A stretch of 35,088 bases of DNA from Verrucomicrobiales bacterium (GTDB taxonomy: Bacteria; Verrucomicrobiota; Verrucomicrobiia; Limisphaerales; UBA11320), in the NCBI GenBank assembly GCA_016793885.1, contig JAEUHE010000076.1:1-35088 (forward strand). The letters run 5' to 3'. Numbering within the stretch: position 1 is the stretch's first letter; each line of letters opens with the position of its first letter. A program made the position numbers and the translations under genes. The notes under the pieces were generated by a model. The model ran no database searches, was not told the DNA's origin, and saw only the letters and a list, made by a program, of their open reading frames with translations. Below, in pieces: positions 10,693 through 29,754 of the stretch.

Positions 10693-11174
10693 GTCGTCGA
10701 AATTTCAGCATCCTTGCTCAAACGCGCATCGGTGGTTCTAGGTCATTCAGGCCTGGCCCCGAGCGTGGAGCCGTGCTGCTGGAAGTCGTCCTGGCTCTGG
10801 TGCTTTTTGTTGCTGCCGCCACCGTGCTTTCGGTGGCCATGAGTTCTTCCATGGAAGCGCTCGAACGTCAGAAGCGCCAGCTCCAGGCTGCCAACTTATC
10901 GATCTCGGTCTTCTCCGAACTTCAATTGGGAATTCGTTCCCTGGCCGCCGTCGGCCCAGAGCCTTTCAGGGCGCCTTTCGCGGGTTGGACCTGGCAAATC
11001 GCGTCCAGCCCCACCGAGGATGAGCTGGGCCAGGGGAACGGACTGACCCGCGTCGAGGTCGTGGTTCAGCATCTCGACTCGGCCACCACGTTCCGTTCCT
11101 GTCAGATTCTGGGCGCGGTTCATGCGCCGGCTGCGGCCCCGAACACGGCGCTGCCCGCGGGGGGTAGCCTATGA
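10689..11174 (+). CDS. gspI: Minor pseudopilin, GspI-like
   Basis: 161 residues. The start ATG overlaps the gspH stop (ATGA). The prepilin signal is non-standard: a long 27-residue leader ends in RG|AVLLEVVLALVLF, with A instead of F at +1 but the +5 glutamate (E32) kept. The VLLEVVLALVLF segment matches GspI better than GspG/H. A short globular domain of about 110 residues follows. GspI initiates the tip complex with GspJ and GspK in studied systems. Sequence alone is weak; the order between H and J supports the call. Confidence 0.82.
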   Translation: MSRRNFSILAQTRIGGSRSFRPGPERGAVLLEVVLALVLFVAAATVLSVAMSSSMEALERQKRQLQAANLSISVFSELQLGIRSLAAVGPEPFRAPFAGWTWQIASSPTEDELGQGNGLTRVEVVVQHLDSATTFRSCQILGAVHAPAAAPNTALPAGGSL

Positions 11175-12004: not shown

Positions 12005-13437
12005 GGCTGAAGCGCATGCGAGGATCCCATCCAGTGTCGGTCGGTGCGGCGGCCACCTGGCGGCGCGGTCGCGGTCGTGGGGGCTTCGTTCTGTTGGCGG
12101 TGCTGGTGGTGATCATGATGGCTTCGATGGTGGCCATGAGCCTGATGTTCCGCATGCGCGCCGAGGACACCGCCTCCTCGGTGACTCTGACCTCCGAGCA
12201 GGCGTTCAACGCGGCCATCAGCGGCGTGCACGAGGCGATGAAGATGGTAGCGCGCAGCGGGGCGGGGCTCACCGACTGGCAGGACAATCCTCGCGCCTTC
12301 CGGGACCGATTCGTGTTCGATGATGGGGTGGAGCGTTGGTATTTCACCTTGTGGTCGCCGCCGGCTGACGACTCGTTGCAGGAGGTTCGTTACGGGTTGA
12401 CCGACGAAGCCGCCAAGCTGAACGTGAACCAGGCTCACACGGCCGAGCTTTCGAAGTTCGGCCGGTTGGATCCGACGCTGATTCAACCGTTGCGGGATTT
12501 CATCGATGCCGACTCGAGTCAACGGGAAGCTGGCACGGAAGAGAGTCCGGTGCTGCACGACCGAGGCTCGGCCTACCAGGTCCGGAATGGGGCGTTGAAC
12601 ACTCTCGACGAATTGCTTCTGGTTCGCGGCTTTACCCCCCGGTCCCTGTACGGAGAGGATCTCAATCTGAACTGCCGTCTGGATTCGAACGAAGATGACG
12701 GGGATCAGCGGGCTCCGGCGGACAATGGGGATGGCCGCTTGGATCTCGGTTTGCGGCCTTATCTCACGGTCTCCTCCTATGAGCCCAACCGGGATTCGCA
12801 GGGACAGCCCCGCACTAATCTCAACGATCCGCGTTCCCCGCTCCCTGCCGTGGAGGTGAATGAGGCGTTCACCAATTTCGTGGCCGCGCTTCGTGCCCAG
12901 AAACTGCGAGTGAACCATCCGGCGGAGCTGCTCGAGAGTTCATTGAAGATGAAGGACCGGCTGGGGCGCGACGTGGAGATTCCTTCCGGCATCGGAAAGA
13001 AGGAGCTGCCGGTTCTGCTCGAGCACTTCACCGCCACCGCCGAGGACGAGTTACCGGGCTTGATCAACGTGAACACAGCCTCGATCGGTGTGCTGGCCAC
13101 GGTGCCGGGGATCGATGAACCGTTGGCGGAAGCGATCGTGTCGGCGCGCAAAAGCGTCAGCCCTGAGCGGCGCAATACGATTGCCTGGCTTTTCGAAAAT
13201 GACGTCATGGACGCTGCTCGATTTCGATTGATCGCTCCGCGGCTGACGGCGCGCAGCTTTCAGTTCCGCTTCCAGGTGGTGGGCTTTGGCCTCCCCTCGG
13301 GACGCTATCGGGTTCTTGACGTGATGATTGATTCTGCCGGGGCTGAGCCGTCCATCAGTTATCTGCGGGATATCACCCGTCTGGGGCTGCCCTTCAGTCT
13401 TGAAAACAATCTATCCCAGGAGGCGAGCGGTGGCTGA
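12001..13437 (+). CDS. gspK: Minor pseudopilin GspK (pseudopilus tip)
   Basis: 478 residues, starting at a GTG that overlaps the gspJ stop (GTGA). An arginine-rich 28-residue leader is followed by G28|FVLLAVLVVIMMASMVAMSL. Position +5 is alanine instead of glutamate, as is usual for GspK, whose lack of Glu5 is linked to its tip position. Residues ~130-200 hold the DEAAKLNVN-type segment of T2SSK. A D/N-rich stretch (DLNLNCRLDSNEDDGD) could bind calcium. Residues ~353-400 (LINVNTASIGVLATVPGIDEPLAEAIV) match the helix-hairpin-helix-like T2SSK domain. Longer than the ~330 residues of enteric GspK. Confidence 0.92.
   Translation: MRLKRMRGSHPVSVGAAATWRRGRGRGGFVLLAVLVVIMMASMVAMSLMFRMRAEDTASSVTLTSEQAFNAAISGVHEAMKMVARSGAGLTDWQDNPRAFRDRFVFDDGVERWYFTLWSPPADDSLQEVRYGLTDEAAKLNVNQAHTAELSKFGRLDPTLIQPLRDFIDADSSQREAGTEESPVLHDRGSAYQVRNGALNTLDELLLVRGFTPRSLYGEDLNLNCRLDSNEDDGDQRAPADNGDGRLDLGLRPYLTVSSYEPNRDSQGQPRTNLNDPRSPLPAVEVNEAFTNFVAALRAQKLRVNHPAELLESSLKMKDRLGRDVEIPSGIGKKELPVLLEHFTATAEDELPGLINVNTASIGVLATVPGIDEPLAEAIVSARKSVSPERRNTIAWLFENDVMDAARFRLIAPRLTARSFQFRFQVVGFGLPSGRYRVLDVMIDSAGAEPSISYLRDITRLGLPFSLENNLSQEASGG
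13418..13423 (+). promoter_or_regulatory. Strong ribosome binding site fixing the gspL start
   Basis: AGGAGG lies 6 bases before the GTG at 13430. It decides the start of the GspL-like gene: the same frame stays open upstream to 13328, but that part overlaps gspK and has no such site. Confidence 0.75.
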
Positions 13438-15202
13438 GTCCCCTACAGGTCCCACGAGTTTCCTTCGGCGCCAGCTTCAATCCGCCGGGCTCACCAAGCG
13501 ACGCCAGCGGACCCCGAGCCTGGTCACCGCGATCGACATCGATGGCCAAACTCTTCGCGTGGCCCAGAGCATTCCACGCGGCCAGGATGGAGACATAACC
13601 TTTGTGTCGTCCACCTCGCTCGAGTTTGCCGTCGACGCCGACCGCACGGACCCCTTGGTGATGGGGGCTGCGGTGGCGAAGGCGCTGGCTAAGTTGAAGA
13701 TCAAGCCGAATGGCGTCGTGATGGGGGTGCCTCGGGCTCAGGTCGTTCTCCGCACGCTGACCTTGCCGGCCGTTCCCGACTTGCGGGAGATGGCATCCAT
13801 CGTGCATCTCCAGCTGGCGCGCGACCTGCCGTTTCGAATCGAAGAGGCCGTGCTGGATTTCAAGGTCGGCCGCAAGAACACCCCAGGTGCGCGGGCGGAC
13901 AGCCTGCTCAACGGCGGGGTGAGCGTTCCCGACGCCAAGGCCGAAGGTGCCGCCCAGGAGCGGATTGAGGTGCTGGTAGCCGCGTTAAAACAGGACGTGG
14001 TGGGGTATTACCAGCAGGTTGCGGACACGGCCGGCCTGCGGTTGATCGCCCTGGGACTGCTGCCGTACGCCAACGCCCGCTGCGTCGAAGCCTGTCATGT
14101 GGCGGATGGCCAGCAGGCCTTCGCCCTGGTGTCGCTTCGTCCGGATGAGGTAAATATCGATGTCATCGCGGACCAGTCGCTGTTGTTCAGCCGTGGCGCG
14201 CTGATCAAAGCGGCCGTCGAGCCGGTGACGGATCCCGCAGCTCCCGCTTCGTCCAAGTCCGAGGGAATTTCCGACGGAGAGAGCGCCGCTGCGGGAACCG
14301 CGGCCGATTCTGTTAAGCAGGCTGGCTTTACCGACGCGGTGACGATCGAGGTGGTGCGGACCCTCCACAGTTATAGCGGCATCGAAACTCTGAATCCGGT
14401 CACCAAGATCGTGGTCGCGGGCGCCACCGGGTTCGAGCCCGCCGTGGTCGAGTTGCTCTCAAAGCGGCTGAACCGCCCGGCCGCCCTGCTCGATCCTGCC
14501 ACCGCGCTCTCCCTGCCGGCGGAGGCCTGCCAGCAGGCGTCAGGTGCGATCGCGGCGATCGGGCTGACCTTGGGCCTGGGTGATTCGCGCGGGCTGCCGT
14601 TCGATTTTCTCAACCCGAAACGTCCCGCGGTTCAGCGCGACATGGGGCGCATCCGAATTCTGGCCGGCACCGCCGCCGTCGCCGCCGTTCTCGTGTTTAC
14701 AGCGGCCGTGCGCTCCTATCTCATCAATCAGCGCACCCAAACCAACCGCAACGTGGCCATGGAGCTGGCCGAGGCGGAGAAACATCGGCCGATCTACCGC
14801 AAGATGATTCAGCAGGCAGCGGCCATCGAGGATTGGGCGAAGGGAGCCCCCAATTGGCTGGATCACTACGCTTACCTCAGCGCGGTCCTGCCTCCCAGCG
14901 ATGAGGTGTACATCACCTCCCTCGCGGTCAGCGCGCAAGGCGTCCTCCGCCTCTCGGTGCAAGCGCAAAGCGGCGAGATTCTGGCCAAGCTGGACAAGCA
15001 GCTGCGGGCCGCCGGCTATGATGTGAAGCCCATCGCCATCACGCCGGGCGCCGATCGCTATGGATATGAGTTTCGATCCAACGTCGAGCTGATCGTCCCT
15101 GAGAAGCTCAAGATTGATCTTACGAAAGTGAAGGCGCCGAAGCGGCCGGCCGACGACGGATCGCTCGATCCCAAGCTCCACCGGGGAGGGACCAAGGGAT
15201 GA
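13430..15202 (+). CDS. gspL: GspL-like protein (fused PilM-type actin fold and PilN-type domain)
   Basis: 590 residues from the GTG at 13430, which has a perfect AGGAGG. Residues ~30-400 form a PilM/GspL cytoplasmic actin-like domain: AIDIDGQTLRVAQ is the first phosphate-loop strand, and VVMGVPRAQVVLRTLTLP and LQLARDLPF follow the PilM pattern. A Ser/Ala/Glu-rich insertion sits at about 270-300. One transmembrane helix follows near 410-430 (ILAGTAAVAAVLVFTAAV). Residues 430-590 form a PilN-like periplasmic part with a helical stalk and a ferredoxin-like domain (YITSLAVSAQGVLRLSVQ). The PilM-PilN fusion is the known architecture of GspL, which recruits GspE to the membrane. It overlaps gspK by 8 bases and gspM by 4. 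Confidence 0.9.
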   Translation: MAESPTGPTSFLRRQLQSAGLTKRRQRTPSLVTAIDIDGQTLRVAQSIPRGQDGDITFVSSTSLEFAVDADRTDPLVMGAAVAKALAKLKIKPNGVVMGVPRAQVVLRTLTLPAVPDLREMASIVHLQLARDLPFRIEEAVLDFKVGRKNTPGARADSLLNGGVSVPDAKAEGAAQERIEVLVAALKQDVVGYYQQVADTAGLRLIALGLLPYANARCVEACHVADGQQAFALVSLRPDEVNIDVIADQSLLFSRGALIKAAVEPVTDPAAPASSKSEGISDGESAAAGTAADSVKQAGFTDAVTIEVVRTLHSYSGIETLNPVTKIVVAGATGFEPAVVELLSKRLNRPAALLDPATALSLPAEACQQASGAIAAIGLTLGLGDSRGLPFDFLNPKRPAVQRDMGRIRILAGTAAVAAVLVFTAAVRSYLINQRTQTNRNVAMELAEAEKHRPIYRKMIQQAAAIEDWAKGAPNWLDHYAYLSAVLPPSDEVYITSLAVSAQGVLRLSVQAQSGEILAKLDKQLRAAGYDVKPIAITPGADRYGYEFRSNVELIVPEKLKIDLTKVKAPKRPADDGSLDPKLHRGGTKG

Positions 15203-16209
15203 ATGCGCGCGAGAAAGTATTGGCGGGCGTCGTCGGGGGCCTCGTTGGGGTTTTTGTGGCGGGGTATGCCCTGTACGCGTTGATCAACAAGCCGCTCAAG
15301 GAAATCGACAAGCGCACGGCCGTCCTCCGCGAGAAGCTGGAGAAGGTCAAGGCCGAGAAACGCGGGTATTTTATGGCCGAGGATCAGGTCAAGGCGATGA
15401 CCCTGCGAACCTTCGCCGATACGATCGATCAGGCCAGCGCGAAGTCCGGTGAGATGCTGACTCGGACGATCCTCTCCAGTGGTCTGCAGGAAATGGAGTT
15501 CACTCGGCTGCCGCTCGGGCCTCGCAGGCTAAAAGGGGCCAATGAGATTGGGTGGAGCGTTCAGGGAGAAGGGCCGTTGGCCAGCGTGGTTAACCTGGTG
15601 TTCCAGCTTCAGGAGTCTCCCTGGCTGCATCGGATCGAGAGCCTCACCGTCACGGCGGGGGACGTTCCGGGTGCGGTTCGCATCCGTTTCCGCTATCTGA
15701 CCTTGGTGATGGACCCGGCTCCCGAGGTCCAACGCACCGAGCTTGCCGTCGCCCGTTCCATCGATTCGAATGAGCGCCGTCTCTTGGACTCCCTGGTGGA
15801 TAGGGATATCCTGCGGCCGTATATCAAGCGTCCTCCTCCGCCGGCGCCGCCTCCTGCTTCGGGCGGCTCTCCCAGCGCCTCCCCCGGCGGACCGGCCGCC
15901 CCCCCAGGACCTGAGTCTTTCCGGATCGTGTCTCTGTCCGAGTGGCAGGGCCAACCCGAAATTCATGTTCGGGACATGGTCAATCAAAAGACCGCGCGGT
16001 ATAAGCCCGGGGATTCCCTGGCCGGCGGTACCGTCGTGATGGTGGACTATCGGCCGCTGCCCATGCCGGGCAATTCCGGGCTTCAGTCCTTTAGTCGGGT
16101 TCTGTTAAAGATCGGTACGGAATTTTGGGCCATCGAACGGGGGAAGACCCTGGCCGACAAGCGCAGGCTTGTCCCCAGCGAGTTTCCCGCGGAATTGGCC
16201 ACTAAGTGA
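15199..16209 (+). CDS. gspM: GspM/PilO-like protein with an added C-terminal HR-like (GspC/PilP) domain
   Basis: 336 residues, about twice a normal GspM. Residues 7-28 form a transmembrane helix (VLAGVVGGLVGVFVAGYALYAL). Residues 33-56 are a coiled coil and ~60-180 a PilO-like ferredoxin fold. A Pro/Gly/Ser-rich linker spans about 209-236. Residues 237-320 (FRIVSLSEWQGQPEIHVRDM, then RYKPGDSLAGGTVVMVDYRPLP and SRVLLKIGTEFWAIERG) look like a small beta domain of the GspC HR/PilP kind. In characterised systems HR links the inner-membrane platform to the N0 domain of the secretin. Because no gspC gene is present, this fusion probably does that job. The fold assignment is inference. It overlaps gspL (ATGA) and is 11 bases from gspD. 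Confidence 0.82.
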   Translation: MNAREKVLAGVVGGLVGVFVAGYALYALINKPLKEIDKRTAVLREKLEKVKAEKRGYFMAEDQVKAMTLRTFADTIDQASAKSGEMLTRTILSSGLQEMEFTRLPLGPRRLKGANEIGWSVQGEGPLASVVNLVFQLQESPWLHRIESLTVTAGDVPGAVRIRFRYLTLVMDPAPEVQRTELAVARSIDSNERRLLDSLVDRDILRPYIKRPPPPAPPPASGGSPSASPGGPAAPPGPESFRIVSLSEWQGQPEIHVRDMVNQKTARYKPGDSLAGGTVVMVDYRPLPMPGNSGLQSFSRVLLKIGTEFWAIERGKTLADKRRLVPSEFPAELATK

Positions 16210-16220
16210 TTTAAGCTGCT

Positions 16221-19200
16221 ATGAAAAACGACATCGAGATCCGCGAGAGTTCCCCGCTCTCGTCCTGCTGCTCCGTTCCCGGGGCTGAGCGCGCGCGCTT
16301 CAACAGCCTGCTGCTCGCCGCCGCCTTGCTGGGCACCTGGATCGACAAGGCCATCGGCCAGGCGGCCGTGCCAGCATCCGCTGCCGCCGCACCGGCATCC
16401 GCCGCTGCCACCCCGCCTCCGGCTGCCGCGCCGGCCACTGCGCCGGCGCTCAATCCCGCCGCGCGGAATATCCGGTTCCAATTTGATGGGATTCCGTACA
16501 CCGATGTGATCGAACGGTTCGCTCAAATGGCCAACAAGCCTTTGGTTACCGACACGAACGTCGTGGGGACTCTGACTTACAACGACCCGAACCCTTATAA
16601 CTACGGAGAAGCGCTGGACACGCTCAACCTCGTGTTGTCCATGAAGGGTGTCATGCTGATCGAGTCCGGAAACTACCTCCGACTTGTCCCGTTCCGTGAA
16701 CTGCCATCGATGCCGATTCGCATCCTCCGCGGGGTCGATTCCACCGGCGATGTCCGCCCGGGTGAAGTGGTGACCGTGGTGCTCGATGTGAAGAACCTCG
16801 ACTCGAAGGAGATCGGGGAGTCGATCGCTTCCATGCTGTCGAATGCCGGATCCGTTGCGCCGTTGTCGCGGGGAAGGGGACTGATCGTGACCGACCGGCT
16901 GTCCAATATCCAGCGAATCCGCACGCTTCTCGCCACGATCGACACGGAGGCGACCGTGGATCGGCAGATGAAGACCTACACCCTGCTGCACGCTTCGGGA
17001 GCGATCGTGTCGGATCTATTGAACCGCACCTTCGGCATCGCCACCGCACCCAAGCGCACCACCTACAACCCCACGACCAAGGCCATGGAGGTGCTGCCGG
17101 CGGATCCGAATGACTACATCACGGCGGTCTACGATGATGCGTCGCGGACCATGGTGCTGTTCGGGCCACGCGAGCGTATCGCCCTCGCCGAAGAGCTGAT
17201 CAATCGCTTTGAACAGAAGGACGGCCCGGGGGGCGACGTGCGCATCTACTATCCTCAGACCATCAAGGCGGAGGATCTCGCCAACGTCATTCGGCAGGCG
17301 GTCCCAGGCATCGCCGCTCCGGGGGACAATGCCAGCACGGCTGCGACCAAGGCTAGGCTCATCACGGACACCAACCAGAACCGGCTGATCGTCGCCGCGC
17401 CCATTCCGGGGCAGTTGGAGCAGATCGAGCAGTTGATCAACCGGGTCGACAAGCCGGTGCATGGGCAGGTCGGCAATGCGAATGTCCCGCTCCGCTCGCA
17501 AACGGTTCAGCTCACCCGCGTCTTCCGCCCGCGCGCGGCGGAAGCCACCAATCTCGCCCAGATCCTAACCCAAGCCCTGACCCGTCGATCGGCTTCGGGG
17601 CAGGTCACCAGCACGGCGAGCATCAGCTTCGACGCTGGCAGCCAAAGCGTGGTGGTGAGCGGCAGCCCGACTGACTTGCAAGTGGCGGGCGACATTGTCA
17701 CGCAACTCGAGACTGGCACCAGCCAACCTACCCGGATGCTGACCCGCTTCATCGATGTGGGTAGTTCTGCTGAAGCCAAGCGCTTGCTGCCCTTGGTGGA
17801 GCAGTTGTATCGGAATCAGGTCAGCGACGGAGCCTTTAGCCCGGGCGCTCACGCCAAGATTCTTACCGATGTGGACTCGAGCCGGTTGATCGTCACCGCC
17901 AGCGAGGATCATTTGAGTCGGATTGAGGAGCTGATTCGTCAGCTGCGCCTGGATCGTCCGCAGCCACAGGCGCGCCGACTGCAAATCGTCACGCTTCGCA
18001 ACGTTCGCGCTGAAACGGCTCTCGCCAGTCTCCAGAACCTGGTCAATGAACGGATGACCGAGAAGCGGTTTCAGGATTTGCCGAAGCCTTCCATCATCGC
18101 CGATGTTCCCAACAACCGCCTGCTGGTCACCGCCACGGACGACCAGTTACGCGAGCTGGAGCAGATCGTGGGTGTGGTGGATGTCACTCCGGACAAGCCT
18201 AAACGCGAACTGAACATCATCCAGCTGCAGGCCAAACCTGCCAGTGAGGTCATCCCCCTGGTGAATCAGTTTGTGTCGCAGATGAACGACGACCCGTCCC
18301 AGCCTGCGCCGTCGCTGATGTCCGATCCGACCGGCAAGCAGATCATCGTCCTGGCCTCCCAGCGGGACGTGGAGCGCATCCGCACACTCGTCAAACAGTT
18401 TGATGTGACGGTTGCCTCGGCCGCCCCGCGCCAGTTTCGCGGCGTCGAGTTGCACAGCCGCACAGCCGCCGAGCTGACCCCGCTGGTCCAGCAGCTTTAT
18501 CAGGAGCAAATCCGTGGTCAGCCCGAGCCCGCCGGGGGCACGGCCACCGTGATAGCCGAGCCCAAAAACAATCGGGTGATGATCAGCGGACCCGACACGG
18601 AGATCAGCCGGGTGGAGGCGATCATTCGTCAACTGGATCCCGACACCAAGCGCGGGACCAAGGAGGAAACCCGGGTGATCCGGATGAAGAGCGCCTCGGC
18701 CGCCGACTTGGTTGGGATCATCGAGAAGAGCCTGAACAACCAGCAACAGCAGGTCCGCGTCATGGTGGATGCGCGGAGCAACAGCCTGGTGATTTCCGGT
18801 GACTCGAGCGCGGTGGAAGCCGCCTCCCAAATCATCCAGCAGCTGGACACCCGTGCCACCGCCGGGCCACGGGAACTGCGGATCATTGAATTGAAGTCTG
18901 CCGACGCCACCGCGATCTCCCCGATGGTCAACAGCCTCTTCACGGAAATGGTCAAGGACAAGCGCGGGGCGGATTATGTCACCCAGACCAAGATTGTTCC
19001 CGACACGACCGCGAACCGCATCATCGTGACGGGGGGTCAGGAAGAGATCGGCCAGATCGCCGAGTTGGTCCAACAGCTGGATCAGGCCCCGGAGCAGGCG
19101 CCGGGCGCCCGGGTCTTTAAACTGAACATGGCCGATGCCGCCATGCTCGCGCCCATTGTTTCCAACGCCATGCTCCGTTTTGACGCGCGCGGGCAGGCGA

Positions 19201-22200
19201 TTCGCCGGGTGACCGTGACCGCCGATGACAAGTCCAACGCGCTCATCATCTCCGGAACTCGTGCGGACCTTCAGGATGTCGGCTCGGTCATCGAGAAGCT
19301 CGACGGCGAAACTTCCGGGAAGGAACGGGTCTTGAAGATCTTTGACGTGAAGTCGGAGGATGTTGATGCGCTGGCCGCCCTGACGCTCAAGGTTTTTGCG
19401 GCTCAAAATCCAGGTCGGTCCACCAGCGGCCTGATCAACATCACCGCCGAACCGGCTGGAAAGCGGCTGATTGTTTTGGCTCCGGCGACCATGATGACCC
19501 AGGTCGAGACCGTGATCTCGACGCTCGACTCCAAACCGGATCAGGGGGTGCGGGAATTGCAGTCCGTCGAGGTGAAGAACGCCAGCGCGACGGAGGTGTT
19601 TGGCCGTGTCAGTCAGATTTACTCCGAGCAATCCCAGGGCAAGACCATCAAGCCGGCGACGCTCTACCCGGATGCGACGGGAAGCCGCATCATGGTCTAT
19701 GGCACCAAGGAACAGGCTGCCTCCATCCGCCAGATCGTTGACACGCTGGCCAGCTCGGCACGATCGCCCCGCGAGACCAAGATTTTCGATGTGGGCCGGA
19801 GCGTGGAGGCTCAGCGGGTTCTTCCGCTGGCCCAGCAGCTCTACCGCGATCAGGTCGCGAGCAACCCCGATCTGGGCGCTCCTGACGCCCAGATGATTAC
19901 GGACGGTCGCACCGGCCGCATCATCGTTTCAGCCCGGGCCGATCAGCTCAAGGGAATCGAGGAGATCATCAGTCGGCTCCAGGTGGGGAGCGTCACCAAT
20001 CAAGCCGTCCGTGAGACCAGAACCTTTGAGGTGGGATCGGCCAGCGATGTGCAGCGACTGCAGCCACTCGTTCAGCAGCTGTATCAGGATCAGTGGAAGG
20101 ACCATTCGGAGTCGGACCCAGCCGATGCTCAGATCATCGCGGATGCGAAGACCGGCCGGCTGATTGTCACGGGCAAGCCGGATCATCTCAAGCAGATCGA
20201 AGCCATTCTGCAACAGATCGGAACGGGAAAGGCCAAGCCTGAGGCCCGCGACACGCGCATCTTTGATCTCAGCACTGCCAGCGCCACGGAACTCGCCGTG
20301 ACCGTCCGATCGCTCTATACGGAACAATCGAAGAGCCGCTTTGGCCCCGCCGGTCCCGACACCCTGATTATGCCGGATGTGGGAGGCAACCGGCTGATTG
20401 TTGTAGCAGAGTTGGCCGAGTTGGATGTGGTGGAAGACATCATCAAGAAGTTGGACAAGGTCAGCGCCCAGAGCGCAACGGCCCGGGTGTTTAAGCTGAA
20501 ATCGGCAGAACCTGAGAAGGTCGCGGAGATTCTCACCACGTCCCTGATTCGCTTTGACGCCTACGGACGTCCCCAGAAGCGGGCCACGGTGTCGGTCGAC
20601 TCCAAAACACGCACCTTGATCGTGACGGGGGATCCCAAGGAGCTCCAGGGAGTCTCGGTAATTATTGAACAGCTGGACCAATCGCTGGGAGCGCAGCCGG
20701 AGCGGAGGATGAAGGTCATCACTCTGAAGCACGGGCGCACCGCCGAGGTCGCGGGACGACTGCGTCAGCTGTACGCGGATCAAGTTCGCAGCCAGCCGGA
20801 GCTGACGACCAGCGATCTCCTGATCCTGGAAGAATCCCCCAGCAATCAGCTGATCCTCGCCGGCAATGAGGGGCAGCTGGCCTTGGCGGATCGCATTCTT
20901 TCGGACCTGCAAGCTTCCCAGAACCTCCAAGCCCCTCGCGAGACCAAGTTGTTGGAGCTCAGTTCGGTGGAGGAGATGAATCGCCTGCTCCCTCTGGTAC
21001 AGCAGCTCTATCAGGATCGTTGGAAGAACCGCGATGCCAGTGACCCGGCCGACGCCCAGATTCTGCCTGATGCCAAGAACGGCCGATTTATTGTGACCGC
21101 CCGCACGAATCAGATTGTCGAGATCGAGGCCATCCTGGGTCAGCTGCGAGGGAACAAGGCCCAGACCGAGGCTCGGGACACCCGCATCTACGACCTCACC
21201 ACCGCCAGCGCCGTCGAACTCGCCGTCACGGTGCGCACTCTCTATCAGGAGCAGTCCAGATCCCGGCCTGCCTCTGGAGCCGCCGATACGCTGATCCTGC
21301 CCGATGGCAGCGCCAATCGCCTGATCATCACCGCCTCCACCAACGAACTCGACGTGGTCGAAGACATCATCAAGAAGCTCGACAAGGTCAGCGCCCAGAG
21401 CGCCACGGCCCGGGTCTTCAAGCTCAAGTCCGCGGATCCCGACAAGGTGGTTGAGATCCTCGGCACCGCCCTGGTGCGCTACGACGCTTATGGCCGCACG
21501 CAGAAACGCGTTTCCGTGGTCGTGGATTCCAAGACGCGCACCCTCATCGCCACCGGCGATCCCAAGGAGCTGCAGTCCGCCTCGGTGATCATCGAACAGC
21601 TGGATGCCTCGCTCGGGGCCCAGCCGGAACGCCGAATGAAGGTTCTAGCGGTGAAGGCGGGTCGTGCCGCTGAACTGGCCACCAAGGTCCGCCAAGTCTA
21701 CCAGGATCAGGCGAAGAACCTTCCGGAGCTTTCCTCCACCGATCCCCTCATCATGGAGGATACCCCGAGCAACCAGCTCATTCTCACCGGCACCGATAAA
21801 CAGCTGAGCCTGCTCGAGCAGATCGCCACCGACCTTTCGACCAACCAGATTGCGTCGCAACCTCGCGAAACCAAGATGTTCGAAGTGGGGCAGGTGGGCG
21901 AGTTGGAGCGGATCCAACCGTTGGTCCAACAGCTGTACCAGGAACGCTGGAAGGGTAAGGACGCCGGGGATCCGGCCGATGCCACGATCCTGTCGGATGT
22001 CAAAAATGGCCGGCTCATCATCACCGCCCGGACCAATCATTTGAAGGAGATCGAGACAATCTTTGCCTCCCTGAACACCCCGACGACCAATCAGGAGCCG
22101 CGTGACACGCGGGTCTACGATTTGAACAGCAGCTCGGCGGCGGAGTTGGTGACCACCGTCAAGTCGCTCTATCAGGAGCAGCTTAAATCCCGGGCAGTGC

Positions 22201-25200
22201 CCATTGGCCAGCAGGCCACGATTCTTCCTGACGCCGCGGCGAATCGCATCGTGGTTTCGGCAGGGAGCAACGAATTGGCATCCGTCGAGTCGATCATCAC
22301 GAAGCTCGACAAGGTGAGCGCCAAAACGGGCGGCACGCGGGTTTTTACCCTGAAGAACGCGCAGGCGGACCAGGTGTCGAGTGTGCTCTCGGCCGCGCTG
22401 GTCCAGATCACCCCCTACGGCACCAAGGTGCCCCGGGTGAGCGTGGGGGCGGACCCGCAGAACAATCTGGTGATCGTGGCGGGTGAACCCAAGGACATTC
22501 AGTCGGCGGCCGTGATCATCGAACAGATGGATGGGACCGCCGCGCAAGAACAGCGTCAAATGCGGATCATTCCGCTGAAGTCCGGGGTCGCTGCCGAAGT
22601 GTCTCGGCGGGTGAAGCAGCTCTATGAAGATCAGCTTAAAGGGCGACCCAAGACCGGTGCGGACGCGTTGATCATGGGCGATGACCTCAGCAACCGGCTC
22701 ATCATCACGGCGAACGAAACCCAGCTGAAGCTGATTGAGGAAATCGTGGGCAAGCTCCAGGAGGCGGGCGAAGGCGCCGGCCGACAGCTGCGTGTGATCC
22801 TGCTGCAGCGCAACTCCGCTCGGGCGATTGCCAGTCTGGTCTCCCAACTCTATGCACCCCAGGTCGCCAGCACCGAGATGGGCGAGCGCCTGGTGGTCAG
22901 CCCCAGCGGCGATGACCGGACTTTGGTGGTGGAAGCGACTGCTCCCATGCTGACCAAGGTTGAGGAGTTGGTGAAGACCATGGACAAGGCGGAGGCCGAC
23001 AGCAAAACGTCCATCCAGGCCGTGCACCTCACGAAGGGCCGGGCGGAGGACCTTGCGGATGCGGTGACCAAATCGATTGCCAGCCAAGTGCCGCAGAGCG
23101 CGATGCATCGGGTCAGCGTGACCGCGGTTTCGGGAGCCAATAGCCTCCTGCTTAATGGTCCGAACGACGCCTTGCCGGACGTGCTCAAACTGATCAAGGA
23201 ACTCGACAGTGAAAGCGCCGACACCGAGATCGAGGTCCGCATCTATAAGCTGGAGAATGGCAACGCCAAGGAGATCAGGGGAGTGCTCGATCAGCTGCTG
23301 TTGAACGCGACCCGTCAGCGCCGAGCCATGAATGCCGGCCGGCTGGTCAATCCCACCATCAGCATCGATGACCGTTCCAACAGCCTCATCGTCTCGGGAA
23401 ATTCCGCTCACTTCAAAGTCCTCGAGAAGCTCTTGCCCACCCTGGATAAGAAACCGGAGCGATCAGAACGTGATGTTCAGTTTGTCTGGCTCAAGAAGGC
23501 GAAGGCTTACGATGTCATCTCCAAGCTCGAGGCGGTCTTTGAAAGCCGGCCGCAGTCGGATCGTCCGGTGATGGAGGCTGATGGGTTCAACAATTCCATT
23601 ACGATCATCGGCCGCAGCGGGGATATTGCCCAGGTGCAGGACCTCATCACGCGTCTGGATGACAGCTCCAAGGATTCCAATCAGCAGGTGCGGCTGCGAC
23701 CTCTGGATCGCGTTTCGGCCGAGCAGATGGCCAAGATGTTGCAGAACATCTATCCCCAGATGGCGAATGGCCAAGTGCGCGTGGTGGAACGGGTGGCACC
23801 ACCCAAGGCGGAAGCCACACCTACTCCCGGAGCGGCGCCTCAGCCCGCTCCGCCGGCTCCCAACCCTCAGCCCGCCCCACCCTCGGCCGAGAATAAACCT
23901 GAGGCTAGCGCCCCCGAGGTGGTCATCGCGGTCGACAAAATTGCCAACGCCCTGGTCTTGTCTGGTCCTGCTCAGGAGCTGGACAACCTCGATCGCATTA
24001 TCAATGACCTTTCCTATAACTTCAGCGGCAACGAGTCCGAGTTCCGGCTGTTTCCCCTGAAGGAAGCGGATGCCATTGTGGTAGCTCGCACCTTGACCAA
24101 TCTGCTCCGACAGGAGCCCGAGCCGAACCAGAATCGGCAGGGCGGCCCGCGCGTCGCAACTCCCCCCCAGCACCAGATCACCATCGTGCCCGATTCCCGC
24201 ACCCACAGCATCATTGTTCGGGCACGCCCCACGGACTTCGCGCTGATCGAGTCGATCATCAAGCAATTGGATGTCGGCAGTCTGGGAACTCAGGTGGCTT
24301 TCCGCCTGATCCGCCTGACGAACGCCCCTCCCGAGAAAGTGCAGCCGCTCGTTCAACAGATGGTGGCGCAGCTCCAGGTTAGCCGTCCCGGAGAACCGTT
24401 GACCGTCAGCGTCGATGCGCGATCGCACAGTCTGATGGTGGTAGCGCGCGAGGCGGTTATCGAGCAGGTTGAGAGGATGATTCGGTCGCTCGACACGCCC
24501 TCGTCCTACATGGAGGCGGAAGTGTTGGTTGTGGCTCTCAAGAAGGCCAGTGCTGGTCCGCTCAGCCAGATCCTCGAAGGAATGCTGAAGCCCGGAGCTC
24601 AAGGCGAATGGGGGCCGGAGGCCAAGGAACTGCAGGAGCAGGTGCGCCGGTTGAAAGTAGTGAACGAAGCGGGGGAAACCATCCTTCTGGACCTGACCAA
24701 GCCGATCAAAGTTTCCGCCGCCAGCGGCAGCGGCAATCGTCTGATCCTCACCTCCACGCCGGATAACCTGAAGGCTCTGTCCGCTGTCGTGGCCACTCTC
24801 GATACCTCCGCCGTGCTGGAAGGGGTTGAGGTTCGGCTAATTTCGCTAAAGAACGCCGATGCGAATAGCGTTTCTCAGACCTTGACCACCGTGTTCACCC
24901 AAGGTCGCCAGCTGGCGACCGGGCCGAATGGAGCGTCGGGGCAGCCTGAGGGCCAGACCGGGAAAGCGTTGACGAACCCGTTCAATGTGTCGATCGATCC
25001 GCGGGGCAACACGCTCATTCTCAGTGGTCAGAAGGAAACCCTGGATCTGGCGGTTAAAATCATCAACGACATGGACCAGCCGATTGAGCGGTTCGTGACC
25101 GAAGTCAAACTGTTCCGTTTGAAACACGCTTCGGCGACGCGGCTCCTCCCGCTGCTCCAATCCGTCTTCACGGAAGGAGCCGCTGTTCCTGGAACCGAGG

Positions 25201-28200
25201 GGCTGAGCACGCAGGTGACGCGGTTGCGCACGGTTAAGGATGCCGCTGCCTCCCAGACGAGCCAGACGGCCAAGAGCCGCGCGGCGATGGTGCTGCAGGC
25301 GGATGACCTCTCCAATATCCTCGTGATCGCCGCGCGCAGCGACATGCTGCCTTTGATCACCGACGTGATCGATCAGCTGGATATCCCCGCGGCCTCCGGT
25401 TTGGAGACGGTCCGCATCTATCCACTAAACCATGCGGATCCCACGGCGGTTCAGCGAATCCTCAACGAGCTTTACACGGGCGCTCGCGCCGCCAGCCTGC
25501 GCACGGAGGACAAGCCGGTGATTTCGGTCGACGAGCGCACGGGAGCGCTGATTGTGGCGGGCAACGGCAAGAGCTTCGGGGTCATCGAAGGATTGCTGGC
25601 GCAGCTGGATCAAAAGCTGAGCTTCGATCTGCGCGACATTCGGATTATCCCCTTGGAAAACTCGGATGCGGCGGCCGTGTCTGGCACCCTCCAACGTCTC
25701 ATGGATGCCCGACTCACCCAGCGCGCGAGTCTCAACAAGGGGCAGACGGATCTGCTGAAAGTGATCATCATGGCGGACGAGCGTAGCAACTCGCTGCTGG
25801 TTGGAGGAACGAAGGATAGCTTTGAGATGGTGGAATCGCTGGCCAAGCAGCTGGACAAGGCGGGGCCGGCCCTGAGCGGTCGCATCCGCATCATCCCGCT
25901 TGCCCAGGCCGATGCCCGCGTCATGGCCTCCACCCTCACCTCCCTGTTCGAGCAGCGCTATGCCGCGGCCCGCAGCAGCGATGTCCAGCGCCGCCGTCCC
26001 ATCATCATGGCCGATCCGCGCAGCAACAGCCTCTTGGTGACCGCCAACCAGGAAGATAATGTCTCGATCGACGACCTGCTCAAGCGGCTCGATGCCAAGG
26101 CGGAGAATCCGTCGCTGACCTTGACCGTGCTGCCTTTGAAGCACAACGACAGCGCCCGCGTCGCGAGTCTGATCGAGAACATTTTCGCGGCTCGGATGAA
26201 AGCCCAGAACTTGCCTGGCCAGCAACCCCTACCCAGCGAGCAAATCAAGGTGGAGGCCGATTCGCTGAACAACGCGCTCATTGTTTCCGCCAGCAAGGAG
26301 AATCTGGAACTCATGCAGGGCTTGCTGCAGAAGCTGGACGTGGAACCCAGCATCGCGGGCGGGGTGATGGAAACCTTCACGCTGCAGTTCGCCGACGCCC
26401 AGCGCGTATCGGCCCTGCTCAAGTCGCTGGTGGATCAGGGGCTGTATCGTCCCGGTCTGCCTCCGGGCGCCTCCCTGAGGAGCAACTCGCCTCGTGACGC
26501 GCTGGCGATCAGCGTCGACCCGCGCAGCAACACGCTGCTGGTAAGCGCGAGTCCAGAGAATCTGGCCATCGTTCGCGAAGTCATTCGCAAGCTGGACTCC
26601 AAGGACTTCACGGACTCCACCAATGTCCGTCTTTATGCCTTAAAGAAGGCCAGGGCGAGTTCCTTGGCCAATTCATTGGAACAGTTTTTCACTGCCAAGC
26701 GGGCGGGGGATGCGGTGGTGCTGAATGCCAATGCGCGTTCGATTCCGGTGGGGATCATCGCCGATGACCGGGTCAACACCCTGCTCGTCACCGGCGGCAA
26801 GGAAGCATTTGATGTCATCGAGCGCATCCTGCCTCAACTCGACGGGGAGAGCGTGTTTGCGCGACTGAATTTCAAGGTGTTTCCGCTCAAGAAGGCGACC
26901 GCCACCAAACTGCAACCCACGCTGCAACGTGTAGTGGCCAATCGTCCGGTGAAGGTGAAGGGCGAGCCGCTCGACCCGATTACCATTGTGGCCGATTCCT
27001 GGGTCAATGCGCTCTTGGTGGCGGCTTCGGTCGACGATCTCAGCACCGTGGAGTCGCTCATCGAGCGGCTCGACAGTGAGCCGGCCGAGAGTGGGCTCGC
27101 TATTCACGTTTTCCCGCTGGCCAAAGCGGATGCTCGACGGGTTGCTCAAGTTGTCCAGGGCCTGTTCCGGGACAGCAATTCGAATACCGATCCTGCGGCC
27201 TCCCTGGCCAATCTGCCGGTGACGGTCAATGCCGATGAGCGGATCAATGCCATCATCGTCTCCTGCGGAGAAGTTGACGCCAAGCGGGTCGGCGACCTGG
27301 TGAAGAAGCTGGATACCGAGCAGGTGGCGCGGGTCAGCGAGATCAAGGTCTTCCCCTTGAAGTATGCCAAGGCGGAGTCCCTATCCGGGATTCTGAACAC
27401 CGCGCTCAATACCAAGCCCGTTCCCTTGACTGAGCAGAGCCCGAATGCCCAGTCGGTGCTCCAATTCATCACCCGGACCACCGAAGGGAAGGAATTGATC
27501 AGCGCCGCCTTGAAGGAGGCGGTGATGATCACGCCGGACTCGCGGATGAACTCCCTGATTGTCAGCGGTCCGGTGGACTACATGGGCCTGATTGAGCAGA
27601 TCATCGGACGGCTGGACGCCAGCTCGCCTCAGGAGGCGAAGATCAAGGTGTTTGCCCTGCAGAACGCGGACGCGCATCAAATGTCGCAGCTGCTCATGCA
27701 GCTGTTTCGCATGACCCCGGCCGTGGGGCAGGGGAATGCCCGATCGATTCAATACACTCTGGTTCGCTCCGCCAGCACCGAGTCCGGAGTCAGTGGAGCT
27801 GAGGAATCGCTGGCTTCGGCAACTCTCGGCACGGCCGAGCAGAATGCACTCACCGTCACGGTCGATCCCCGGACCAATAGTCTGCTGGTTGGCGGCACCG
27901 ATCACTACGTGAAGCTCGTGTCCGAGATCATCGAGTCCTTGGACGCCACCCCCGCGAATGAGCGGAAGACCGAGTTGGTGCGAATGAAGAACACTCAGGC
28001 CACGGAAGTGGCCACCGCTCTCCGCGGGTTTTTGGATCAGGAACGCCAGCGAGTCACCCAGGTCCTGGGCGCTGATGCCGTTGGTACCGCTCAGCGTCTC
28101 CTGGAGCGAGAAGTTGCGGTGGTAGCCGAACCGGTGAGCAATACCTTGTTGATCTCCGCCAATCCCCGTTACTTCGATCAGATTCATATGATTATTCTCG

Positions 28201-29123
28201 AGCTGGATAAGGCCCAGGACCAGGTTCTGATCCAGGTTCTGCTGGCCGAGATCACCCTTGATTCACTCAGTGAGCTGGGGATGGAATGGACGCAGAACGG
28301 CAAGGTCGGCGAGGCGAATTACAAACTGGGAACTGATTTCGGCGTCGCCAACCAGGTCAAGAATTTCGGGGGATACTCGACCGCAGTGACCGGCAGCGAT
28401 TTCACCTTCCTGTTGCGGGCGTTGAAGGACGAGGGTCGACTGGAAGTGCTGAGTCGTCCTCAAATCGTTACGGGTGACAATAAGCCAGGCACGATCAATG
28501 TGGGGCAGCGGGTGCCCACCATCACCGGATCCACCGTCAGCACCGCCGGCACCACGGTAAACACCTACGGGTACGAGGACGTGGGCATCATCCTGTCGGT
28601 CACGCCCAAAATCAGCCCGGACGGGTTCGTGAAGATGGAGATCGGAACCACCAATAGTGCCATCAGCAGCGCGGTGGTCGAGATCAACGCCGACGCGAGG
28701 ATTCCCATCCTCAACCAACGGCGCGCCAATACCACCGTCACCGTGCAGAGCGGCCAAAGCATTCTGATCGGGGGCCTCATCGCCACCACGGACGATAAGC
28801 GAGTGAAGAAAATGCCACTGCTGGGTGATATTCCGTGGATCGGCTCCCTGTTCCGCAGCACGAAGACCGCCCGCGACCGGAAGGAGCTGCTGATTCTGCT
28901 GACCCCTCAGGTGCTGGTGAATGAGCCTAACTTGGCCATTTCGCGAGCGATGACCCCGCACGAGATGACGCGCGATCATCTGGACAAGTCGCGCATCAAG
29001 GATGAGATCAAGCGCGACGCTCTGCAGCAACAGCTGTTGGATCCATTGTTTCCGCCGGTGAAGAAGGACAAAGCCTCCGGCTCGGAGACGGATGCCAAAG
29101 CCATTCAGAAGAACGAACCGTGA
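16221..29123 (+). CDS. gspD: Giant type II secretion secretin GspD with ~47 tandem secretin-N modules
   Basis: Outer-membrane secretin in one open frame of 4300 residues (~0.46 MDa by average residue mass); classical GspD has about 650-700. In order: an N-terminal signal sequence (hydrophobic core LLLAAALLGTW near 30-40); an Ala/Pro linker (~48-80); an N0 domain (84-160, opening IRFQFDGIPYTDVIERFAQM); 47 consecutive N1-type modules of ~81 residues (182-3999); a secretin barrel (4000-4233, DQVLIQVLLAEITLDSLSELG to LLILLTPQVLVNE, including VxxGQxVP and IxIGGL-type motifs); and a charged tail of 67 residues. Each module shows strand-helix then D-x-x-S-N-x-L-I-V-x-G followed by a helix ending I-x-x-L-D. 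Modules 5-26 mostly carry LVQQLYQxQ after helix 1. Modules 29-46 carry VFPLKxADA-type first strands. A Pro-rich hinge interrupts module 31. The frame has no stop and codon use matches its neighbours. Confidence 0.95.
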   Translation: MKNDIEIRESSPLSSCCSVPGAERARFNSLLLAAALLGTWIDKAIGQAAVPASAAAAPASAAATPPPAAAPATAPALNPAARNIRFQFDGIPYTDVIERFAQMANKPLVTDTNVVGTLTYNDPNPYNYGEALDTLNLVLSMKGVMLIESGNYLRLVPFRELPSMPIRILRGVDSTGDVRPGEVVTVVLDVKNLDSKEIGESIASMLSNAGSVAPLSRGRGLIVTDRLSNIQRIRTLLATIDTEATVDRQMKTYTLLHASGAIVSDLLNRTFGIATAPKRTTYNPTTKAMEVLPADPNDYITAVYDDASRTMVLFGPRERIALAEELINRFEQKDGPGGDVRIYYPQTIKAEDLANVIRQAVPGIAAPGDNASTAATKARLITDTNQNRLIVAAPIPGQLEQIEQLINRVDKPVHGQVGNANVPLRSQTVQLTRVFRPRAAEATNLAQILTQALTRRSASGQVTSTASISFDAGSQSVVVSGSPTDLQVAGDIVTQLETGTSQPTRMLTRFIDVGSSAEAKRLLPLVEQLYRNQVSDGAFSPGAHAKILTDVDSSRLIVTASEDHLSRIEELIRQLRLDRPQPQARRLQIVTLRNVRAETALASLQNLVNERMTEKRFQDLPKPSIIADVPNNRLLVTATDDQLRELEQIVGVVDVTPDKPKRELNIIQLQAKPASEVIPLVNQFVSQMNDDPSQPAPSLMSDPTGKQIIVLASQRDVERIRTLVKQFDVTVASAAPRQFRGVELHSRTAAELTPLVQQLYQEQIRGQPEPAGGTATVIAEPKNNRVMISGPDTEISRVEAIIRQLDPDTKRGTKEETRVIRMKSASAADLVGIIEKSLNNQQQQVRVMVDARSNSLVISGDSSAVEAASQIIQQLDTRATAGPRELRIIELKSADATAISPMVNSLFTEMVKDKRGADYVTQTKIVPDTTANRIIVTGGQEEIGQIAELVQQLDQAPEQAPGARVFKLNMADAAMLAPIVSNAMLRFDARGQAIRRVTVTADDKSNALIISGTRADLQDVGSVIEKLDGETSGKERVLKIFDVKSEDVDALAALTLKVFAAQNPGRSTSGLINITAEPAGKRLIVLAPATMMTQVETVISTLDSKPDQGVRELQSVEVKNASATEVFGRVSQIYSEQSQGKTIKPATLYPDATGSRIMVYGTKEQAASIRQIVDTLASSARSPRETKIFDVGRSVEAQRVLPLAQQLYRDQVASNPDLGAPDAQMITDGRTGRIIVSARADQLKGIEEIISRLQVGSVTNQAVRETRTFEVGSASDVQRLQPLVQQLYQDQWKDHSESDPADAQIIADAKTGRLIVTGKPDHLKQIEAILQQIGTGKAKPEARDTRIFDLSTASATELAVTVRSLYTEQSKSRFGPAGPDTLIMPDVGGNRLIVVAELAELDVVEDIIKKLDKVSAQSATARVFKLKSAEPEKVAEILTTSLIRFDAYGRPQKRATVSVDSKTRTLIVTGDPKELQGVSVIIEQLDQSLGAQPERRMKVITLKHGRTAEVAGRLRQLYADQVRSQPELTTSDLLILEESPSNQLILAGNEGQLALADRILSDLQASQNLQAPRETKLLELSSVEEMNRLLPLVQQLYQDRWKNRDASDPADAQILPDAKNGRFIVTARTNQIVEIEAILGQLRGNKAQTEARDTRIYDLTTASAVELAVTVRTLYQEQSRSRPASGAADTLILPDGSANRLIITASTNELDVVEDIIKKLDKVSAQSATARVFKLKSADPDKVVEILGTALVRYDAYGRTQKRVSVVVDSKTRTLIATGDPKELQSASVIIEQLDASLGAQPERRMKVLAVKAGRAAELATKVRQVYQDQAKNLPELSSTDPLIMEDTPSNQLILTGTDKQLSLLEQIATDLSTNQIASQPRETKMFEVGQVGELERIQPLVQQLYQERWKGKDAGDPADATILSDVKNGRLIITARTNHLKEIETIFASLNTPTTNQEPRDTRVYDLNSSSAAELVTTVKSLYQEQLKSRAVPIGQQATILPDAAANRIVVSAGSNELASVESIITKLDKVSAKTGGTRVFTLKNAQADQVSSVLSAALVQITPYGTKVPRVSVGADPQNNLVIVAGEPKDIQSAAVIIEQMDGTAAQEQRQMRIIPLKSGVAAEVSRRVKQLYEDQLKGRPKTGADALIMGDDLSNRLIITANETQLKLIEEIVGKLQEAGEGAGRQLRVILLQRNSARAIASLVSQLYAPQVASTEMGERLVVSPSGDDRTLVVEATAPMLTKVEELVKTMDKAEADSKTSIQAVHLTKGRAEDLADAVTKSIASQVPQSAMHRVSVTAVSGANSLLLNGPNDALPDVLKLIKELDSESADTEIEVRIYKLENGNAKEIRGVLDQLLLNATRQRRAMNAGRLVNPTISIDDRSNSLIVSGNSAHFKVLEKLLPTLDKKPERSERDVQFVWLKKAKAYDVISKLEAVFESRPQSDRPVMEADGFNNSITIIGRSGDIAQVQDLITRLDDSSKDSNQQVRLRPLDRVSAEQMAKMLQNIYPQMANGQVRVVERVAPPKAEATPTPGAAPQPAPPAPNPQPAPPSAENKPEASAPEVVIAVDKIANALVLSGPAQELDNLDRIINDLSYNFSGNESEFRLFPLKEADAIVVARTLTNLLRQEPEPNQNRQGGPRVATPPQHQITIVPDSRTHSIIVRARPTDFALIESIIKQLDVGSLGTQVAFRLIRLTNAPPEKVQPLVQQMVAQLQVSRPGEPLTVSVDARSHSLMVVAREAVIEQVERMIRSLDTPSSYMEAEVLVVALKKASAGPLSQILEGMLKPGAQGEWGPEAKELQEQVRRLKVVNEAGETILLDLTKPIKVSAASGSGNRLILTSTPDNLKALSAVVATLDTSAVLEGVEVRLISLKNADANSVSQTLTTVFTQGRQLATGPNGASGQPEGQTGKALTNPFNVSIDPRGNTLILSGQKETLDLAVKIINDMDQPIERFVTEVKLFRLKHASATRLLPLLQSVFTEGAAVPGTEGLSTQVTRLRTVKDAAASQTSQTAKSRAAMVLQADDLSNILVIAARSDMLPLITDVIDQLDIPAASGLETVRIYPLNHADPTAVQRILNELYTGARAASLRTEDKPVISVDERTGALIVAGNGKSFGVIEGLLAQLDQKLSFDLRDIRIIPLENSDAAAVSGTLQRLMDARLTQRASLNKGQTDLLKVIIMADERSNSLLVGGTKDSFEMVESLAKQLDKAGPALSGRIRIIPLAQADARVMASTLTSLFEQRYAAARSSDVQRRRPIIMADPRSNSLLVTANQEDNVSIDDLLKRLDAKAENPSLTLTVLPLKHNDSARVASLIENIFAARMKAQNLPGQQPLPSEQIKVEADSLNNALIVSASKENLELMQGLLQKLDVEPSIAGGVMETFTLQFADAQRVSALLKSLVDQGLYRPGLPPGASLRSNSPRDALAISVDPRSNTLLVSASPENLAIVREVIRKLDSKDFTDSTNVRLYALKKARASSLANSLEQFFTAKRAGDAVVLNANARSIPVGIIADDRVNTLLVTGGKEAFDVIERILPQLDGESVFARLNFKVFPLKKATATKLQPTLQRVVANRPVKVKGEPLDPITIVADSWVNALLVAASVDDLSTVESLIERLDSEPAESGLAIHVFPLAKADARRVAQVVQGLFRDSNSNTDPAASLANLPVTVNADERINAIIVSCGEVDAKRVGDLVKKLDTEQVARVSEIKVFPLKYAKAESLSGILNTALNTKPVPLTEQSPNAQSVLQFITRTTEGKELISAALKEAVMITPDSRMNSLIVSGPVDYMGLIEQIIGRLDASSPQEAKIKVFALQNADAHQMSQLLMQLFRMTPAVGQGNARSIQYTLVRSASTESGVSGAEESLASATLGTAEQNALTVTVDPRTNSLLVGGTDHYVKLVSEIIESLDATPANERKTELVRMKNTQATEVATALRGFLDQERQRVTQVLGADAVGTAQRLLEREVAVVAEPVSNTLLISANPRYFDQIHMIILELDKAQDQVLIQVLLAEITLDSLSELGMEWTQNGKVGEANYKLGTDFGVANQVKNFGGYSTAVTGSDFTFLLRALKDEGRLEVLSRPQIVTGDNKPGTINVGQRVPTITGSTVSTAGTTVNTYGYEDVGIILSVTPKISPDGFVKMEIGTTNSAISSAVVEINADARIPILNQRRANTTVTVQSGQSILIGGLIATTDDKRVKKMPLLGDIPWIGSLFRSTKTARDRKELLILLTPQVLVNEPNLAISRAMTPHEMTRDHLDKSRIKDEIKRDALQQQLLDPLFPPVKKDKASGSETDAKAIQKNEP
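16470..16700 (+). other. GspD N0 domain (secretin/TonB short N-terminal fold)
   Basis: Residues 84-160 of GspD. IRFQFDGIPYTDVIERFAQMANKPLVTD followed by GTLTYNDP and a helix (YGEALDTLNLVLSMKGVMLIESGNYLRLVP) is the usual N0 pattern. It is the part that contacts GspC HR in studied systems. Only one copy is present, so the expansion affects N1-type modules only. Confidence 0.85.
20010..20936 (+). repeat. Four-module super-repeat, copy 1 (GspD modules 15-18)
   Basis: 927 bp, residues 1264-1572. It begins RETRTFEVGS, and its four modules begin RETRTFEV, RDTRIFDL, TARVFKL and RRMKVITL. The same order of module types returns twice downstream with equal or nearly equal length. Confidence 0.9.
20937..21863 (+). 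repeat. Four-module super-repeat, copy 2 (GspD modules 19-22)
   Basis: 927 bp, residues 1573-1881. Module starts are RETKLLEL, RDTRIYDL, TARVFKL and RRMKVLAV. It is the closest relative of copy 1: bases 21354-21434 encode the same 27 residues as 20427-20507, with 10 nucleotide differences, all synonymous. Confidence 0.9.
21864..22781 (+). repeat. Four-module super-repeat, copy 3 (GspD modules 23-26)
   Basis: 918 bp, residues 1882-2187. Module starts are RETKMFEV, RDTRVYDL, GTRVFTL and RQMRIIPL. It is more diverged than copies 1 and 2 and 9 bp shorter. Confidence 0.85.
28218..28920 (+). other. GspD secretin barrel domain
   Basis: Residues 4000-4233. It opens with the DQVLIQVLLAEITLDSLSELGMEW signature (the VxVxAxIxEV-like start of the secretin family), continues through RLEVLSRPQIVTGDNKPGTINVGQRVP, and ends in ILIGGLIATTDDKRVKKMPLLGDIPWIGSLF and LLILLTPQVLV. 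All hallmarks of a functional GspD-type channel are present, so the giant protein ends in a normal gate. Confidence 0.93.
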
Positions 29124-29668: not shown

Positions 29669-29754
29669 CCTGTAGGCGACGAGGTGACGAGTCGTCCCCC
29701 CCCATCAAATCCGGCCCCTTGCACTCATCTGAGTTCCTGGCATGCTTGTTCGTG

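Follow-up and report, generated by a model that had tools for sequence, protein, structure and literature searches.

A 4,300-residue GspD-type secretin with 47 N1-type modules, encoded in a gsp-type operon of Limisphaerales

Background

In described type II secretion systems (T2SSs), the secretin carries an N0 domain and about three ring-building modules. The mean length of secretin-family proteins has been given as 555 +/- 151 residues (PMC4827864). In the described secretins every N-domain makes up one ring, and the tube in the periplasm is a stack of these rings; the PilQ of Thermus, with six stacked rings and about 35 nm in situ, is called exceptionally long, extending across a wide periplasm, and a thermophilic adaptation is suggested (PMC5745081, PMC4463427). 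Here we describe a secretin of 4,300 residues, encoded by the last gene of a gsp operon in a Verrucomicrobiales bacterium (Verrucomicrobiota; Limisphaerales). The window, i.e. the whole stretch of DNA analysed, comprises 35,088 nucleotides (assembly GCA_016793885.1, contig JAEUHE010000076.1, positions 1 to 35,088 of the forward strand).

With GspD, PulD and XcpQ, the T2SS secretins of Proteobacteria, the giant protein shares N1-type modules, an N0-like start, a PF00263 barrel, a gsp operon and a match to TIGR02517. It differs in having 47 N1-type modules instead of three, and GspC was not found above cut-off, for which reason the system is called here gsp-type and not a canonical T2SS. The type IV pilus secretin PilQ of Thermus thermophilus (N0-N5) is similar in that extra beta-alpha-beta-beta-alpha rings lengthen its tube across a wide periplasm, but it has five such rings against 47 modules, measures 757 residues and belongs to a pilus system; the likeness is one of how the two might work. 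The Akkermansia pilus proteins Amuc_1098 (a verrucomicrobial secretin) and Amuc_1101 (PilM-like) are weakly matched, at profile level, by the barrel of the giant and by the L protein of its operon, but these matches lie far under the family cut-offs, and the Amuc_1098 model has 805 positions. Two other secretins of the same genome, encoded in gsp-like clusters, likewise have Secretin_N modules and a PF00263 barrel; unlike the giant, they have either four modules on a chain apart from the barrel, or six modules within 1,046 residues. A literature search at the level of paper entries, with bioRxiv outside its scope, found no published description of a giant or multi-module secretin.

Domain structure of the giant secretin

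The gene occupies positions 16221..29123 of the forward strand, on which all features of the window given below are located. As predicted earlier from inspection of the sequence (the original prediction), it is one intact open reading frame (ORF), with an ATG start and no internal stop across 4,300 residues. Pfam profiles resolved 43 stretches of Secretin_N (PF03958; 1,253 bits, cut-off 28.2), not a handful of N1 domains, and a single secretin barrel (PF00263; 165.9 bits, cut-off 27.5), at residues 4067-4232 (28419..28916), in agreement with the one normal C-terminal barrel that had been proposed. The NCBIfam equivalog TIGR02517 scored 1,287 bits against a cut-off of 351, a sum inflated by the repeats; its best stretch is residues 3880-4236. 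These scores exclude a chance origin of the module and barrel matches. The giant protein is unmistakably a secretin, far beyond the described range. Besides Secretin_N, N0 and the barrel, no Pfam family gave an individually significant stretch.

The modules were counted by a profile derived from the repeats of the giant itself, matches with an independent E-value (i-E) below 1e-3 being considered strong. The profile identified 46 strong modules and one weak, partial N-terminal match (i-E 0.016), for a total of exactly 47, where about 47 had been predicted. The bounds of this weak module 1 (about residues 178-242) were set by hand; it falls below the i-E threshold in protein P0001, and is omitted from the counts of strong modules in the query and its 120 listed homologues, and from the module-by-module alignments to these homologues. 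The 47 N1-type modules, of the ring-building Secretin_N type, are contiguous from residue 178 up to residue 4000 (16752..28220), with gaps of no more than 10 residues past residue 243. Modules 45-47 (27327..28220), nearest to the barrel, correspond by position to N1-N3, as delimited by the own-repeat profile and the module alignment. The computed mass of a single chain is 465 kDa.

The single N0 of the original prediction was located at residues 94-154 (16500..16682), but its score with the N0 model PF21305 is 23.8 bits, under the cut-off of 27. Residues 86-248 align to XcpQ N0-N1 structures with a whole-sequence E-value of 1.4e-5, no single stretch being significant, and PF21305 is precomputed in the annotation of homologues such as P0009 and P0010. 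Residues 1-47 (16221..16361) form a signal-peptide-like start, judged by eye from a hydrophobic stretch and followed by an Ala/Pro-rich linker. A hydrophobic 11-residue window within the first 80 residues is found in 117 of 121 proteins (the query and the 120 homologues considered below), as opposed to 10 of the 121 interior stretches taken at random.

Conservation of the reading frame

The giant protein, used as a query, gave 586 matches at E<=1e-3 among 1,642 scored proteins. For this search, and for those performed with its 1,700 C-terminal residues (307 matches) and with a planctomycete-type giant (1,092 matches), details were taken from the best 120 proteins. The query and the best 120 of the 586 contain 38-55 strong modules, and their length follows a linear fit with 87.4 residues for each module and a constant of 289 (r 0.99). 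One of the relatives, 4,293 residues long and 98% identical, is encoded on a separate contig of 1.86 Mb. Because of this protein, and of the homologues with 38-55 modules among the 586 matches, an assembly artefact was ruled out.

Compared with two genes from the same genus, the ratio of nonsynonymous to synonymous differences (pN/pS) ranges between 0.08 and 0.46 in each of the 47 modules, synonymous sites being near saturation. These values, and conservation by position across the 120 listed homologues, bear out the earlier impression that the gene looks functional and not decayed. Broken frames are also found: in one relative (locus L044), a single in-frame stop at 15947-15949 splits the giant frame into 2,039 and 2,418 residues, and the giant frame of genome G244 is split.

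Variation of the module array

Adjacent modules of the giant protein are about 26% identical, and a tandem repeat search of the DNA, with periods up to 500, found no array of module size. The single modules are therefore old and diverged, and a recent array of single modules was discarded as an explanation. A different periodicity is evident in the stretch of modules 9-28, where pairs at an offset of four show a mean identity of 40%, reaching up to 80%. Modules 15-18 (19995..20924), 19-22 (20922..21851) and 23-26 (21852..22772) represent one four-module block in three copies, as indicated by the offset-4 identities; for the third copy the alignment of homologues is also informative, since exactly modules 23-26 are missing, with all else present, from 48 of the 120 listed proteins.

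In the same set, modules 2-13 and 28-47 occur in 118 to 120 proteins, with median identities of 51-80%, and module 27 in 115 (49%), while the presence of modules 14-26 varies. The highest median identities are those of modules 17, 2 and 45. Module by module, the array thus varies mostly in its central part, by entire blocks, and is position-fixed elsewhere.

Occurrence in Limisphaerales and across Verrucomicrobiota

Genomes were searched by using the N0 and modules 2-8 of the giant as a query. Of the 293 genomes belonging to the order, 96, the giant's own included, have a strong match (E<=4.2e-81; the next best genome reached 2.2e-19); at 1e-10 the number rises to 186, a tally that includes ordinary secretins. 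The matched frame has at least 2,500 residues in 71 of the 96 genomes and at least 3,500 in 51, up to a maximum of 5,155, and the shorter ones may include frames at contig ends. Among 387 genomes representing the phylum, at least one of the other 386 being from the same order, the genome of the giant alone matched at E<=1e-25. The source names of the relatives are Verrucomicrobia, Limisphaerales and Pedosphaera; a few records named Proteobacteria, Klebsiella or Akkermansia are taken as mislabelled metagenome bins. The original prediction, which described an expansion not known from any described secretin, was therefore right about its extreme size, but the expansion is not unique to this genome, given the 96 genomes of the order and the Planctomycetota names reported below.

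Giant secretins under Planctomycetota names

The 1,700-residue C-terminal query also reached proteins from Planctomycetes and Phycisphaerae, and the search with one planctomycete-type giant found its 1,092 matches among 7,984 scored proteins. Many of the best 120 are 3,300-5,073 residues long, one of them being located on a 3.9-Mb contig; where a source is named, it is Phycisphaerales or Planctomycetota, so that the occurrence in this phylum rests on source names in a search in which most rows are nameless. Two of the 120 were already known. The profile counted 23-53 modules in the 118 new proteins (36-53 in 111 of them), some being partial and some modules being missed. Overall, modules were counted on 121 (query included), 120 and 118 proteins.

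When the last three modules were excluded, module order was collinear with the giant in all 11 proteins tested (z 4.4-6.8), mostly over modules 34-40 (24501..26351), as defined by module alignment and shuffle test. Modules 2-27 alone gave z values between -1.4 and 2.3 (100 shuffles each). About 10 of the last fourteen modules are common to both groups. The strongest repeats are four modules apart in five of five Limisphaerales-type proteins tested (in one also two apart), and include modules five apart, at a different place, in five of seven Planctomycetota-type giants; P0252 shows in addition a repeat of three modules, and repeats of this strength are missing from P0304 and P0319. The lack of collinearity of modules 2-27 and the different size of the duplicated blocks (four versus five) point to an independent lengthening in the two groups. 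The plain reading of these alignments would be that a core near the barrel is shared, and that the remainder was expanded separately. Relatives of intermediate size (P0208, P0164; 23-25 modules) match the giant at either end and lack most of its middle.

In a tree of barrel sequences, 12 Limisphaerales rows form one group (support 75/75), and 16 Phycisphaerales rows another, together with one mid-size row (100/97). The tree has long branches and no outside root, and its 'Ord' set omits loci with five-module barrel frames (mostly giants). A single clade of giants spanning both phyla is not supported by it.

Other secretins of the same genome

A split secretin was observed in the same genome (locus L053, contig C152), where positions 6937-8565 encode an N0 and four Secretin_N modules, and positions 8615-9838 a barrel with a partial module and a separate hydrophobic start. 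This arrangement in two ORFs recurs in 10 of the 36 loci L001-L036, and the split secretin therefore looks like a conserved form in the order; L032, L034 and L036 were left uncounted, as they have short barrel frames for which an upstream module ORF was not found. Another contig (C256, locus L057) carries a separate gsp-like cluster with a secretin frame of 1,046 residues and six modules, at 8975-12112.

A proposed tube across an enlarged periplasm

We propose, with confidence evenly balanced, that the giant GspD-type secretin assembles into a ring oligomer, its modules being stacked as a periplasmic tube of about 150-200 nm which spans an enlarged periplasm. By analogy with the N-domains of solved secretins, a given module would join with its counterparts in the adjacent subunits to make a separate ring; the stack of rings would lead to the outer-membrane pore, and would serve to bring the pseudopilus and folded substrates across the periplasm. 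Assuming 3-5 nm per ring, as estimated from two secretins of known length, 47 rings would extend for about 140-235 nm; for comparison, PulD with bound PulC domains has a reported extent of about 20 nm (PMC6882859). If the oligomer is a 15-mer, the symmetry assumed from other T2SS secretins, its mass would be 15 x 465 kDa, about 7 MDa.

An ordinary periplasm could not hold a tube of about 140-235 nm. Strain Ellin514 of subdivision 3 is described as having a paryphoplasm free of ribosomes, or enlarged periplasm (PMC2647929), and in Planctopirus the width of the periplasm is reported as highly variable, with crater-like complexes fastening the membranes where they are close (PMC5394234). We infer that the groups with an enlarged periplasm are the carriers of the giant gene. 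The length of the protein may have been selected to fit such a compartment, and the shorter secretins that this genome also encodes may serve sites where the membranes are close. An extended version of this proposal, which we regard as tentative and somewhat doubtful, is that a tube of about 48 rings, 150-200 nm and about 7 MDa, spanning the enlarged periplasm in both phyla, would be the longest secretin channel known, lengthened independently from a common core of about 10 rings by four-module blocks in Verrucomicrobiota and by five-module blocks in Planctomycetota, the number of rings acting as a ruler of envelope width.

Several observations weigh against the tube. The multi-module predicted model has a mean predicted local distance difference test score (pLDDT) of 67.6, and its 32 best superpositions on known secretins gave a query template modelling (TM) score of 0.11-0.22 and a root-mean-square deviation of 5-42; with a model of such low confidence and poor fit, the stacking geometry is unsettled. 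The barrel model is also poor (pLDDT 59.5). Since the same genome has secretins of four and six modules, its envelope is not 150 nm wide everywhere: either these secretins serve places of close contact, or they argue against the tube. A strong match is absent from 197 of the 293 genomes of the order, some of which are incomplete. GspC (PF11356) gave no match above cut-off in a genome which is 95.7% complete, the best E-value being 0.1. In three of 16 loci from named genomes, the sequence upstream of the giant gene (about 10 kb in L045, about 1 kb each in L051 and L052) contains no gsp matches, and there the giant gene may lie outside the operon. As for the independent lengthening, the loss of collinearity between the phyla could reflect divergence rather than separate expansion.

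A rather unlikely alternative is an elastic tether, in which only the modules nearest to the barrel, and perhaps the N0, would form rings, and the other 30-40 would be a flexible chain of beads reaching the inner membrane at a variable distance. This would be consistent with the cell-to-cell variation described for the planctomycete periplasm (PMC5394234), with the coexistence of short and long secretins in one genome, with the unsettled multi-module geometry, and with the position of the modules clearly common to both phyla, all within the last fourteen. Against a flexible chain, the modules abut with almost no linker and retain their individual identities across the 120 listed homologues; the top median identities, at modules 17, 2 and 45, are not confined to the region near the barrel. 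It seems quite improbable that the extra modules are a periplasmic scaffold or binding array, for substrate capture, cell-wall anchoring or as a multi-layer collar, around a pore working in the ordinary way: the summed KH-like matches most simply reflect the common fold, and the absence of a further family with a significant single stretch also speaks against it. That the frame is misassembled, or that modules piled up neutrally by runaway duplication without function, is hardly credible, since the broken frames of some relatives and length differences arising as duplicated blocks are outweighed by the near-identical protein on another contig, the 586 matches, the pN/pS values across all modules and the failure to find a DNA-level array of near-identical modules.

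A D...N/G motif was also considered as evidence of ring formation; this loose pattern occurs in 33 of the 47 modules, was uncontrolled and includes at least two hits that look misplaced, and was given no weight.

A conserved family whose members mostly have 36-55 modules, and which occurs in two phyla, shifts the known limits of the secretin machine about eightfold. The family also offers a molecular handle on a long dispute, namely how planctomycete- and verrucomicrobia-type cells, with periplasms that are enlarged and invaginated, link their two membranes. Should the number of rings follow the width of the envelope, a cell dimension open to measurement could be predicted from the gene. Should the modules form no rings, some other reason must be sought for the module-by-module conservation of so large a protein.

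The gsp operon and neighbouring genes

The giant gene closes an operon with the order E-F-G-H-I-J-K-L-M-D. The 'full gspE-M operon' of the original prediction is mostly right, with assignments of different quality. Pfam identifies a GspE-type ATPase (T2SSE and MshEN; 6440..8119), and the major pseudopilin GspG (9400..9930) has a clear profile match. Evidence is mixed for GspF (8130..9335; Pfam T2SSF above, NCBIfam GspF below cut-off) and for the GspK-like protein (12001..13437; Pfam HHH_3 and T2SSK_1st above, T2SSK and NCBIfam GspK below), and the profile of the GspJ-like pseudopilin (11171..12004) is below cut-off. The pseudopilin in the GspH position (9940..10692) is recognized by the N_methyl pilin motif only, and the GspI-position protein (10689..11174) by its location, having an N-terminal hydrophobic stretch and no profile match. 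The L protein (13328..15202) is GspL/PilM-like by profiles; its start was set mechanically, the true one being probably further downstream.

The GspM-position protein (15199..16209), so called from its location, combines one predicted membrane helix with a Pro-rich linker and, at its C-terminus, a conserved domain; it gave no Pfam family above cut-off and no relative in the PDB. Its gene lies immediately 5' of the giant gene in 10 of the 16 loci, and the C-terminal domain (15829-16206) is 58-68% identical in 10 loci; the position of this domain suggests that it may be a partner of N0. A GspC-like homology region (HR) domain at this C-terminus, guessed from the layout of the protein, is supported neither by Pfam nor by a PDB profile search, whose best match (E 0.28) is to an unrelated chain. 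As far as the sequence reaches, the operon gene order is found upstream of the giant in 10 of the 16 loci, and three more loci start at the giant gene itself.

Directly 3' of the giant gene, positions 29422-31677 encode a DnaK-like HSP70, whose mechanically delimited ORF is longer at the N-terminus by about 110 residues. It was rejected as a part of the system, as no match was found beside the giant in the 16 loci, some of which have little downstream sequence. Positions 32576-34095 comprise a group II intron maturase gene and, just 3' of it, an Rfam group II intron match (34023-34095).
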